A DNA stretch of 64,000 bases. Source: Pseudomonadota bacterium (GTDB lineage Bacteria; Pseudomonadota; Gammaproteobacteria; Acidiferrobacterales; UBA6901). The notes beneath the pieces are model-generated. The model did no database searches. It saw nothing but the letters and a program-made list of their open reading frames with translations, and was not told the DNA's origin. Shown in pieces: positions 21,018 through 25,586 of the stretch. Each line of letters opens with the position of its first letter. Within the stretch, counting starts at the first letter, position 1. The stretch is from positions 53,485 through 117,484 of the forward strand of contig JAJYEE010000005.1 in NCBI GenBank assembly GCA_021790335.1, in the 5' to 3' direction. The translations under genes were made by a program, and so were the position numbers.

Positions 21018-22316
21018 CTAGCGTGCGCAGCTGCGAAACCCCGCGAATATGTCGTTTCTGTCTGGTGTGTAGAAGTTGCGCCAAGTATTCCACACCAGCC
21101 GCGCCGGGGTTGCCCAGCTTCCGCCGCGCAGAACCTTGTGCGTTCCGAACCATGGCGCGGAATAGTCGCGGTAAGGGTCGGGAGAAAAGCCCGGATAGGG
21201 AGCGAAAGTGGATGCGGTCCATTCCCAGACGTTGCCGATCATTTGGCGGCAGCCGCAGGCGCTGTCGCTTTGCGGAAGCGCCGCGACATCGATGCTGGCG
21301 AGTGTGCCGCCATGCAGATTGGCGTGCGTTCCAGTCGGGGTTTCGTCCCCCCACGGATAGCGGCGCTTCCGTGCACCCTTTACGCCACCCGGCATGACCT
21401 CGCAGGCTGCCGCCGCCTCCCATTCGGCCTCGGAAGGCAGCCGCCGCCCCGCCCAGCGACACCAAGCCTGGGCTTCGTGCCAGTTCACGTGCATCACCGG
21501 CGCGTGCGGTGCCAGTGCGGTCCAGCGATCGAAACGGCGCACTTCCCAGTCCGGGCCGTTCCTGCGCCAGTACCGCGGCGCTTCGGCGCCGGCCCGTGCG
21601 CGCCATTCCCATCCGCAGTCGTCCCAGAACTCGCGTCGGCGGTACCCGTGGTCGTCGACGAAGGCCACATAATCCGCATTGGTCACCGGTGCCCGTGCTA
21701 TGCGGAATGGCGCCAGTTCCACCGGGTGCGCCCACTTTTCGTTATCGAATACGAAACCCTCGGTCGACGTGGCGCCAAGCAGGAAGCGGCCGCCCGGCAC
21801 CTCCACGTCCCCCGGCAGCGGGCCGGCCGACGTCGCAAGCGCAGCGGTTCCGGCCGGTGCCGGGTAACCCAGGGTCTGGCGCATGTACGTGAACGCCTCG
21901 GAGTGCATGTCCTGGTGGAAAATGGCGAGCAGATAAAAGTAGGCATCCCTCTCGGGCACCGAGTCCCCGTGGTCATGCAGGCGCTGACGCAGCGCATCAT
22001 TCACCGCCTGCAGATAGGCGAGGGTGTCCACCACCGGGGGCAGGGGCAGGTCCCAACGCCGGTCATGCGCGATCGCGGAGGAGTCGTACAGGGTATCGGC
22101 CTCGGGCATCAGCGGGGCACGCCGGTCCAGATTGCGCAGGATCCAGTATTCGCTGAACCACGCCAGATGTCCGATTTCCCAGTTCGGGGGGTTCACCGTG
22201 GGCAGGCGCGGGCCGAGCATCTGGTCCGGGCCGAGATCGGTGACCAGACGCAGGGTGCGCGCGTGCGTATCGTCGAGGTATTCGAGAAGTTCTGCCGCTG
22301 TCACGGGATTGGCCAT
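21018..22316 (-). CDS. senA: Selenoneine synthase SenA (EgtB-like iron enzyme)
   Basis: A 432-residue protein with two domains. The N-terminal DinB-like half carries a three-histidine iron site: H50 in GHLAWFSEYW and H134/H138 in FHQDMHSEA, the same spacing as the sulfoxide synthase EgtB. The C-terminal half (about 170-432) is a formylglycine-generating-enzyme fold, with GGRFLLGA, VNWHEAQAWCRWAGRRLPSEAEWE, GNVWEWTAS and VLRGGSWAT. EgtB couples hercynine to a thiol; SenA is the selenium version, which joins hercynine to a selenosugar. The assignment to SenA rather than EgtB rests on the adjacent SenB-like glycosyltransferase and SelD; EgtB-only clusters normally carry egtD or egtC instead. No egtD is seen in this window, so hercynine would have to come from elsewhere. 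Confidence 0.82.
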   Translation of the reverse strand: MANPVTAAELLEYLDDTHARTLRLVTDLGPDQMLGPRLPTVNPPNWEIGHLAWFSEYWILRNLDRRAPLMPEADTLYDSSAIAHDRRWDLPLPPVVDTLAYLQAVNDALRQRLHDHGDSVPERDAYFYLLAIFHQDMHSEAFTYMRQTLGYPAPAGTAALATSAGPLPGDVEVPGGRFLLGATSTEGFVFDNEKWAHPVELAPFRIARAPVTNADYVAFVDDHGYRRREFWDDCGWEWRARAGAEAPRYWRRNGPDWEVRRFDRWTALAPHAPVMHVNWHEAQAWCRWAGRRLPSEAEWEAAAACEVMPGGVKGARKRRYPWGDETPTGTHANLHGGTLASIDVAALPQSDSACGCRQMIGNVWEWTASTFAPYPGFSPDPYRDYSAPWFGTHKVLRGGSWATPARLVWNTWRNFYTPDRNDIFAGFRSCAR

Positions 22317-22354
22317 ATACTATGCCTGTTCCGAATTATGTCCCTGTGAAATCC

Positions 22355-23302
22355 ATGCGTATATTGATTGTGACGCCTGCGCCGCGTGGATCGCGGGCTG
22401 GCAACCGTACTACGGCACGCCGCTGGGCCAGAATCCTCAGGGCCGAAGGCCACCGCGTCTCGGTCACGGTCGGGTACGATGGTGCGCCGGCGGACCTGAT
22501 GGTCGCGTTGCACGCCTGGCGCAGCGCGGACGCAGTGCAGTGTTTCCGGGAGCATTGTCCCGACCGGCCATTGATTGTAGCACTGACGGGTACGGATCTT
22601 TACCACTTCCTGCGCACCGATTGCGAAGTCACGACGCGTTCCATGAAGCTCGCTCACCGGCTCGTGGTTCTGCACGAGGCTGCGATCGACACGGTTCCTC
22701 AGCCGCTGCGCGGCAAGGTGCGGGTGATTCTGCAATCGGCGGATGTCTTTCCCGAGAGAAAACCGTCTCCGCGGCGCTTCGACGTCTGCGTGATCGGACA
22801 TTTGCGCGATGAAAAGGATCCGTTGCGCACGGCCTATGCTGTGCGCAACCTTCCGTTGCAGTCGCAGCTGCAGGTGCTGCATCTGGGGAAGGCGCACACC
22901 GATGCCTGGGCGCAGGCGGCGCGCGCAGAGATGGCGCAAAACCCGCGATATCGCTGGCGCGGTGAGGTCCCATACCGGGAGGTGCGGCGGGTGTTGGCGC
23001 GCAGCCGGCTCATGGTGCTGTCATCGCGCATGGAGGGGGGCGCCAACGTGATCTCGGAAGCCGTGGTTGCCGGCGTGCCGGTAATCGCCTCGCGCATCGA
23101 CGGATCGGTCGGCCTGCTTGGCTCCGGGTACCCGGGGTATTATCCGGTCGAAGACACGGCGGCGCTTACCGGGATGCTGTTGCAGGCCGAGCGTGACCCG
23201 GTTTTCTACGCGCGCCTTCAGGATGCCTGTGCGCTGCGTGCACCACTGTTTGATCCGCAGCACGAGCGGCAGGCATGGCGCGCTGTGCTGGCCGAGCTGT
23301 AG
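22355..23302 (+). CDS. senB: Selenosugar synthase SenB (TIGR04348-type glycosyltransferase)
   Basis: A 315-residue GT-B glycosyltransferase. The N-terminus ILIVTPAPRGSRAGNRTTARRWARIL and the central VIGHLRDEKDPLRTAYAVR match the small family formerly listed as TIGR04348, now known to include SenB. The C-terminal nucleotide-sugar half has SRMEGGANVISEAVVAGVPVIAS, with the conserved EAxxxGxPVIA. SenB uses selenophosphate and a UDP-sugar to make the selenosugar used by SenA. I take the ATG at 22355 (MRILIV) over 22322, because the extra eleven residues are unlike the family. It is divergent from senA with 38 bases between the starts and converges on the selD fusion gene. Confidence 0.82.
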   Translation: MRILIVTPAPRGSRAGNRTTARRWARILRAEGHRVSVTVGYDGAPADLMVALHAWRSADAVQCFREHCPDRPLIVALTGTDLYHFLRTDCEVTTRSMKLAHRLVVLHEAAIDTVPQPLRGKVRVILQSADVFPERKPSPRRFDVCVIGHLRDEKDPLRTAYAVRNLPLQSQLQVLHLGKAHTDAWAQAARAEMAQNPRYRWRGEVPYREVRRVLARSRLMVLSSRMEGGANVISEAVVAGVPVIASRIDGSVGLLGSGYPGYYPVEDTAALTGMLLQAERDPVFYARLQDACALRAPLFDPQHERQAWRAVLAEL

Positions 23303-23318
23303 CGGACGGTTCTGACCT

Positions 23319-25586
23319 TCATCGCAGGACGAGTGTCACCGATGCAGCCGCGTTGCCCGGTTCCATGACGCGCCCTATGACCGCGCTCTGGGCATAGCCG
23401 AGCCGGCGCAGAGCGGCAAGGCAGAGGTCCGAGTTTTCCTCGGGGACGGACGCCAGCAGACCCCCCGCCGTCTGAGGATCAAACAGCAGCGGGTAGCGCG
23501 CATGCGCGACGGCGGTATCCAGGTTGCAGATCGCGCGCCGCAGGCGGATGTTCTCCGGTTGCAGGGAGCTGAAGATCCCTTGTGCCAGGGATTCGAGTGC
23601 ACCGTCCAGGACCGGCAGACTGTCGAGTTCTATTTCGACGTCGACCTGGGAAGGGCGGGTCATCTCCAGGAGGTGACCCAGCAGCCCGAAGCCGGTGACG
23701 TCGGTGCAAGCGTGTGCTCCGTGAAGCATCAGGCAGTCGGCGGCCGCGCGGTTTGACTGCAGCATGGACTCCAGCGCCGCATCGATCCAGCGTCCCTTGG
23801 CAAGCCGGCGCATGTCGGCGGCGAACAGGGTGCCGGTGCCCAGGGCTTTCGCGAGAATCAGTCGGTCTCCCGGGCGCATGCCGCCCTTGCGCAGAAGCCG
23901 TCCGCGTTCCGCCAAGCCGTTGACGCACAGCCCGAAGGCCAGCTCGGCGCCTTCGCTCGAATGTCCGCCGACGAGTGCCGCTCCGGATTCTTCGAGCGCC
24001 ACCGCGGCGCCGGCCATCATCTCGTAGAGCGCCTGCTCGATCTTGGCTTCAGGGCCGAACGGAACGCTGGCAATGGCGAGGGCCGACTGTGGCTGTGCGC
24101 CCATCGCATAGATGTCGCCGAGGCTGTGGTTGGCGGCGATCCTGCCGAACAGGTACGGATCGTCGACGATGGCGCGGAAAAAATCCACAGTGTGCACCAT
24201 GACCTGTCCGGCGGGTACTTCGACGACCGCGGCGTCGTCCGCATCGCGCATGCCGACAAGAATGTCGGTGCGCGGTGCTATCGAGATGCGGGCGAGCACG
24301 CGGGCAAGTACCGTGCTGCCGATCTTGGATCCGCATCCGCCGCAGCGCATCGCCCACGCGGATATCTCGCGTAAAGCCTCGCCGTCCGCCGGCGTATCCG
24401 GCCGGCCCGCGCTGCCGGCCATGTGGTTCGGCAGCAGCGGTTCCCGGTAGCGCTCCATCCAGCGTCTGTCTATCCAGTCCTTCCAGCGCCATATGGCCGC
24501 TCCTGCGATGGTCAGCGGTCCGCGCGAAGCGATGGCGGAGCGGTCTCCCGTGCTTATCAATGCGAGAAAACGGCGCTGCGGAACGAACGCAACCAGCGGT
24601 TCGCATTTCGATGCGCGCCGCAGATTCACGGCAAGCGCCGGACCCTGACGTACCGCCATCACGCCGGATTTCGCGCGCGGATGATTGCGCATGGTCGCGA
24701 TGTCGCCGGCGGCGAAAACACCCGGGTGAGAATAGGACTGCAGGAAGTCATCGACCTCGATAAACCCGGTCGAAGTGGTCGTGAGCCCGGTGCGGGCGAT
24801 CCAGCCCGGAGCCGCCGCGTTCGTCGCCCAGATGAGCGCATCGTAGGGAAAGGACAGAGTGGCGCCAGCGTGTATCGCAGTAATATGTTCCGCCGTGACT
24901 TTGTGCACGCGATGTTCGGGATGGACCGATACCCCTCGTTCCGAAAGGATGTGCATGAACTTCCGTCTCACCCGCTCATGGTGCGTGGGAAGGATCTGCG
25001 GCGCTTCCGAAAACAAATGGAACTGCGCCCGCCCGGCGCCGCCGGCGGATGCAACGCGATGCTGCAGCGAAAGCGTGAGCTCTACCCCTCCGGCGCCGGC
25101 GCCCACCACTGCGATGCGGAAGGTACTCGCGGTATTGCGCATGCGCCTCTCGATCAGATCCCATCCTGCGAGAAAGCGGTCGACTGGCTTTACCGGCAGC
25201 GCATGTTCTGCCACTCCCGGAATGCCGCTTTCGTCCGGTGTCGAGCCGATGTCGATCGAGAGCACGTCATAGGGGACCGCCGGGCGCCCGCGGCACAACA
25301 CCCGGCGGTTCGCCAGGTCCAGCCCGACCATTTCGTCGTGGTAGAGCCGGCAGCCGGCGAAGTGCGCGAGCGGGCGCAGGTCCACATGGACTTCGTCGAA
25401 GCCGTAGTGGCCGGCGATATAGCCGGGCAACATGCCGGAATAGGGCGTGTGGACGTCGCGCGTTATAAGGGTGAGCCGTACCCCCGGTTCGGGGCGCATC
25501 CCGAAAGCCCGCAGCACAGCTACGTGGCTGTGGCCGCCGCCAACGAGCACCAGATCCTTACGAACGATGTCTGACTGGCCTTGCAT
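23319..25586 (-). CDS. selD: Selenide, water dikinase fused to N-terminal FAD oxidoreductase (SenC role)
   Basis: A 755-residue fusion. Residues about 1-385 are a pyridine-nucleotide-disulfide/NDH-like oxidoreductase: dinucleotide-binding LVLVGGGHSHVAVL, a second one in IAVVGAGAGGVEL, and an FAD site GVFAAGDIATM. Residues about 405-755 are selenophosphate synthetase: RCGGCGSKIG with the catalytic cysteine and lysine (about 412-419), MVHTVDFFRAIVDDPYLFGRIAANHSLGDIYAMGA, GGHSSEGAE, TDVTGFGLLGHL and DPQTAGGLL. SelD makes selenophosphate from selenide and ATP; the fused oxidoreductase is thought to supply or control reduced selenium. In the sen clusters described for other bacteria this step is SenC, usually without the fusion. 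The active site carries Cys, not selenocysteine. Confidence 0.92.
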   Translation of the reverse strand: MQGQSDIVRKDLVLVGGGHSHVAVLRAFGMRPEPGVRLTLITRDVHTPYSGMLPGYIAGHYGFDEVHVDLRPLAHFAGCRLYHDEMVGLDLANRRVLCRGRPAVPYDVLSIDIGSTPDESGIPGVAEHALPVKPVDRFLAGWDLIERRMRNTASTFRIAVVGAGAGGVELTLSLQHRVASAGGAGRAQFHLFSEAPQILPTHHERVRRKFMHILSERGVSVHPEHRVHKVTAEHITAIHAGATLSFPYDALIWATNAAAPGWIARTGLTTTSTGFIEVDDFLQSYSHPGVFAAGDIATMRNHPRAKSGVMAVRQGPALAVNLRRASKCEPLVAFVPQRRFLALISTGDRSAIASRGPLTIAGAAIWRWKDWIDRRWMERYREPLLPNHMAGSAGRPDTPADGEALREISAWAMRCGGCGSKIGSTVLARVLARISIAPRTDILVGMRDADDAAVVEVPAGQVMVHTVDFFRAIVDDPYLFGRIAANHSLGDIYAMGAQPQSALAIASVPFGPEAKIEQALYEMMAGAAVALEESGAALVGGHSSEGAELAFGLCVNGLAERGRLLRKGGMRPGDRLILAKALGTGTLFAADMRRLAKGRWIDAALESMLQSNRAAADCLMLHGAHACTDVTGFGLLGHLLEMTRPSQVDVEIELDSLPVLDGALESLAQGIFSSLQPENIRLRRAICNLDTAVAHARYPLLFDPQTAGGLLASVPEENSDLCLAALRRLGYAQSAVIGRVMEPGNAAASVTLVLR

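Follow-up and report, generated by a model that had tools for sequence, protein, structure and literature searches.

A predicted selenoneine biosynthesis locus with an Ndh-SelD fusion in the place of SenC in a gammaproteobacterium

Gene content and domain architecture of the locus

Examination of a 64,000-nucleotide stretch (53,485-117,484) of contig JAJYEE010000005.1 from a gammaproteobacterium (GenBank assembly GCA_021790335.1, here genome G000), which we refer to as the window and whose right edge is the end of its contig, reveals three adjacent genes, senA, senB and a gene for an Ndh-SelD fusion, whose products all score above the cut-offs of the corresponding NCBIfam models. The senA gene (21018..22316, minus strand) codes for a 432-residue homolog of selenoneine synthase (NF041186, 535 bits, cut-off 420), and senB (22355..23302, plus strand) for a 315-residue Se-glycosyltransferase homolog (TIGR04348, 442 bits, cut-off 300). 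Counted with the senB start at 22355, ahead of which a further in-frame ATG lies at 22322, the starts of these two divergent genes are separated by 38 bases (22317..22354). The third gene (23319..25586, minus strand) stands in the place of SenC and codes for a 755-residue protein matching both TIGR03169 (480 bits, cut-off 310) and TIGR00476 (314 bits, cut-off 125). Its NDH-like FAD oxidoreductase domain, as delimited by TIGR03169, covers residues 11-380 (24447..25556, minus strand), and its SelD domain runs from residue 414 to the end (23319..24347, minus strand), the TIGR00476 match being residues 414-718. The SelD active site, C415-G-G-C418, is part of the motif MRCGGCGSK (24333..24344, minus strand). 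An earlier note on this DNA had recognized an EgtB-like SenA with H50, H134 and H138, a SenB of the TIGR04348 type, the divergence of their genes and, alongside them, a SelD fused to an FAD oxidoreductase; the three histidines are indeed present, and the model scores, coordinates and strands bear out the rest of that description.

The sen genes are flanked by a cardiolipin-synthase-like gene, an RNase-Z-like gene, a gene for an FKBP-type isomerase and pepN. This neighborhood is kept in two congeners, G002 and G003, with 91-98% and 79-87% protein identity respectively over the eight genes compared, and seven of the eight are also kept in G001 (64-82% identity). The RNase-Z-like metallo-hydrolase gene (NF002558; 19895-20971) follows senA on the same strand, as it does in G002 and G003, but tblastn was negative for it in the fetched locus of G001, in the loci of the other relatives and in the 80 named loci described below, and we therefore dropped it as a candidate component of the pathway.

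Conservation of the gene order across bacteria

The layout of the window was compared with 80 named loci, the best of 576 confirmed SenA-relative loci, which come from several phyla. SenB is found next to SenA in 66 of them; the two genes are divergent in 45 loci and co-directional in 21, and no SenB was seen in the other 14, of which some are short. The order and strands of the window (fusion-senB-senA) recur exactly in 10 of the 80 (L011, L016, L021, L039, L054, L066, L072, L074, L082 and L083), and L037 has the same order with the NDH half of the fusion alone seen; these loci belong to Gamma- and Alphaproteobacteria. The earlier note had called the layout rearranged. Given that 45 of the 66 loci with both genes are divergent and that the exact order is repeated elsewhere, this description falls away: the layout is an arrangement common to many bacteria and thus no rearrangement peculiar to this one.

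Scoring the named loci by tblastn with the proteins of the window, we found among the 45 divergent loci 17 with the full Ndh-SelD fusion, 4 with the NDH half only, 6 with a stand-alone SelD and 18 with none of these. None of the 21 co-directional loci has the fusion; one of the 14 without SenB does. When kinship between the loci is ignored, the association of the fusion or its NDH half with divergence (21 of 45 against 0 of 21) has a Fisher's p of about 5e-5. The short distance between senA and senB also has counterparts: of the 45 named loci with divergent genes, 34 have the matches 20 to 99 bases apart. Such close starts suggest that the two genes have overlapping promoters.

A separate observation concerns the stand-alone SelD genes of three sen loci, L033 (3940-4926), L034 (526-1452) and L086 (2485-3453), whose active-site position is occupied by an in-frame TGA (asterisk in KAG*GSK, KAG*AAK and TCG*AAK, respectively). 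Given this codon, the three proteins probably contain selenocysteine.

Affinities of the SenA homolog

OvsA, the selenoxide synthase of ovoselenol formation, uses selenium and takes histidine as its substrate. It shares its fold family with the window protein and passes the NCBIfam SenA model NF041186 (435 bits, cut-off 420). It is also the solved structure (chains 8ux5 and 8u41) that scores highest with the window protein, at 320 bits; EgtB 4x8b reaches 286 bits, and the solved SenA chains, which are some 50 residues shorter in the middle than the window protein, reach 282. Hence the possibility had to be tested that the locus encodes an OvsA-type synthase that places selenium on histidine and has no need of egtD. 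Several lines of evidence speak against it. The TIGR04373 signature (cut-off 71) is passed by the window protein (100.8 bits) and by solved SenA 8k5i (93.8 bits) and missed by OvsA (56.7 bits) and EgtB (45.1 bits). The active-site motifs of the window protein are HQDMH and DYSAPWFGT, the latter loop being identical in 8k5i, which has HEAMH as the other motif, whereas HQNMH and STLQF stand in the five printed rows of OvsA. A quick maximum-likelihood tree, built from 70 of the 128 gathered sequences, places SenA (41 rows, including the window protein and 8k5i), OvsA (12) and EgtB (17) in three groups of their own, supported at 85, 100 and 96; 8k5i has a long branch (2.05), which makes its own place in the tree unsure. 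SenA genomes, moreover, carry EgtD (see below). We accordingly reject the OvsA identity, which now appears very improbable. The other candidate identity, that of an EgtB (ergothioneine sulfoxide synthase) using sulfur next to selenium genes that adjoin it by chance, draws on the common domain order and three-histidine iron site and on the 334 bits that the protein scores with TIGR03440, the EgtB model. This score is, however, under the cut-off of 360 and far under the 535 bits for SenA, the EgtB sequences group apart in the tree, and a chance association sits poorly with SenB adjoining SenA in most of the named loci; this identity is likewise rejected, as scarcely credible. The phylogenetic check proposed in the earlier note thus came out in its favor, and on tree and motifs the window protein is of the SenA type and not of the OvsA or EgtB type. 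The predicted iron ligands H50, H134 and H138 are invariant in 32 aligned homologs.

Public records give the name selenoneine synthase SenA to proteins of the OvsA group, for example P0128 and P0136, and in the P0121-P0240 set such names are likely an annotation error. In a gammaproteobacterial metagenome-assembled genome, an OvsA-group and a SenA-group gene lie head to tail (L068:4864-7570) with a stand-alone SelD nearby, and this organism possibly makes both selenium products.

Conserved residues of SenB

The window SenB is about 40% identical to that of Variovorax paradoxus (124 of 311 positions). We compared 13 positions, including the catalytic K158, that are given in PMC10891094 for the Variovorax protein. 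Ten are kept (N20, T23, H58, R61, T83, T85, R155, K158, E231 and E239), K154 of the window protein sitting at the place of K158; these include all four positions used as the test of the pathway (K158, N20, T23 and E231). The other three differ (V157 to E, T214 to V and H235 to N), the last being the change by which the EGGAHV motif reads EGGANV.

The Ndh-SelD fusion and the selenium economy of its hosts

Sequence comparison relates the NDH half of the fusion to solved FAD-dependent NADH dehydrogenases, and solved SelD chains align over its residues 416-740. Both the cysteine and the lysine of the SelD active site are present. An alignment of 24 fusions showed MRCGGC at the active site in all of them and, at the 95% level, five conserved cysteines (C415, C418, C618, C627 and C722), none of which is in the NDH half. 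A search of the genome for other selD copies, as the earlier note had proposed, returned none over the TIGR00476 cut-off of 125: the three other matches (65, 26 and 25 bits) were rejected as a second SelD, and the fused protein is the only one over the cut-off.

Fusions of Ndh with SelD that carry CxxC in the active site were on record by 2008 (PMC2398784), in a paper that terms their function not entirely clear. The window protein resembles these in its N-terminal NDH-like domain, its Cys-type SelD and its active-site CxxC (PMC2398784 and PMC4561486). According to PMC4561486, every genome with an extended SelD also has selenoproteins and other Sec machinery, whereas the type in the window adjoins senAB and is found in some genomes with neither SelA nor SelU over the cut-off. 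Models for SelA, SelU and YqeB were searched in nine genomes including G000. None of the three was over its cut-off in G000, G001, G004, G017 and G111; SelA was found in G003, with a 39-bit SelA fragment in G002, SelU in G098 and G100, and YqeB over the cut-off in none of the nine. On these models G000, G001, G017 and G111 depart from the rule stated in PMC4561486. The relative G017, a single contig of 3,958,814 bases, has senA, senB and the fusion as well as a separate egtB-egtD pair. Given that none of the SelA, SelU and YqeB models finds anything over its cut-off in them, G000 and G017 may use selenium for selenoneine alone. A literature search found no paper linking Ndh-SelD with selenoneine, in a search weak enough to have missed the original selenoneine paper as well.

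The missing egtD and the source of hercynine

The earlier note had remarked that no egtD is present, and this stands: none was found in the window (best tblastn E-value 0.5), and neither an EgtD nor a second EgtB-like protein was found in the assembly, which is 97.6% complete. EgtD otherwise accompanies SenA. It was found in 48 of the 49 other SenA genomes searched, drawn from the 80 named loci (45 over the cut-off; the exception is the genome of L038), and egtD lies within 23 of the 80 fetched loci themselves. Among 145 relatives, EgtD is present in 7 of 8 SenA genomes against 64 of 137 others (Fisher's p 0.03). Within the family of the window, G001-G003 have both SenA and EgtD and G004-G006 have neither, and a second EgtB-like match was seen in none of them. 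In G001-G003 egtD, fabA and fabB share one strand, egtD being the upstream gene; ppsA flanks them at one end, while epmA, efp and epmB lie at the other. As an observation in its own right, the three SenA congeners (L134, L135 and L136) all have egtD as the immediate upstream neighbor of fabA-fabB, which serve the synthesis of unsaturated fatty acids.

This neighborhood bears on whether the gene is truly absent, in which case selenoneine would be made from imported hercynine or SenA would use another histidine derivative. The empty search of a nearly complete assembly and the L038 genome, which likewise has SenA and no EgtD match, are compatible with true absence. On the other side, EgtD is present in all three SenA congeners, and contig C28 of the window's genome begins inside epmB, that is, within the congeners' egtD neighborhood, matching G002 from base 3 onwards with 94% identity over 4387 bases. 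The rest of a 12-kb congener query covering the region of ppsA, fabB, fabA, egtD, a diguanylate cyclase gene, epmA, efp and epmB gave one further match, which falls in the diguanylate cyclase gene (246 bases, 69%). Thus ppsA, fabB, fabA, epmA and efp are missing along with egtD, and given that the joint loss of fabA, fabB and efp is implausible, a gap in the assembly appears the best reading, true absence of egtD being unlikely. To look for the other edge of the supposed gap, 7.5 kb from the far side in G002 were compared with the assembly and found no match, an empty answer obtained without a positive control. The gene itself was unseen; it likely lies inside the gap, upstream of fabA-fabB, and such a gap at the site of the congeners' egtD fits better than the earlier note's conclusion that hercynine must come from elsewhere.

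Functional implications

The nearest characterized system is senABC of Variovorax paradoxus DSM 30034 (PMC9814287), in which SenA, SenB and a SelD-type enzyme are likewise encoded together; most of the SenB positions compared from PMC10891094 are shared with it, as described above. The window differs in the divergence of senA and senB and in having the Ndh-SelD fusion where Variovorax has SenC. Judging from homology to characterized enzymes, the fused Ndh-SelD would supply selenophosphate, SenB would convert this to a selenosugar and SenA would transfer the selenium of the selenosugar to hercynine. The NDH domain could draw electrons from NAD(P)H and hand them on, by way of FAD, either to the C415/C418 pair or to a selenium species.

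We propose, with a probability of roughly 85%, that the three genes are a selenium-incorporating set predicted to make selenoneine, the egtD gene being placed in the unassembled stretch. The model scores, the tree, the motifs, the SenB residues, the conserved loci and the co-occurrence of SenA with EgtD all favor this proposal, as does the finding that no SelA, SelU or YqeB that would consume selenophosphate is over the cut-off in the bacterium itself. Against it weigh the EgtD missing from the assembly, the gap's far edge that was not found, OvsA as the top solved structure, the SenA group support of only 85 together with the long 8k5i branch, the three differing SenB positions, H235 included, and the L038 genome. 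Of the selenoneine locus suggested in the earlier note, the SenA grouping, the SenB residues and the sole SelD have held up, and the rearranged layout and the external hercynine have not.

The locus is therefore a well-supported selenoneine locus, to which a fused SenC and a selenium economy limited to selenoneine are added as hypotheses. More tentatively, in a proposal that may well prove wrong, the fusion could be a self-contained, NAD(P)H-driven maker of selenophosphate, working from oxidized selenium by way of FAD and the CxxC for the use of SenB, with selenoneine as its native job in hosts, including G017, that would devote their selenium to this one molecule and lack selenocysteine, selenouridine and selenium-molybdenum enzymes.

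Given that NF041186 takes in an OvsA enzyme, annotations made with this NCBIfam model can misstate the product, and annotations of selenium metabolomes may consequently name the wrong one. For the Ndh-SelD family, the locus would provide the fusion with a partner pathway and a testable route for its electrons, and it draws attention to bacteria that may use selenium for one small molecule only.
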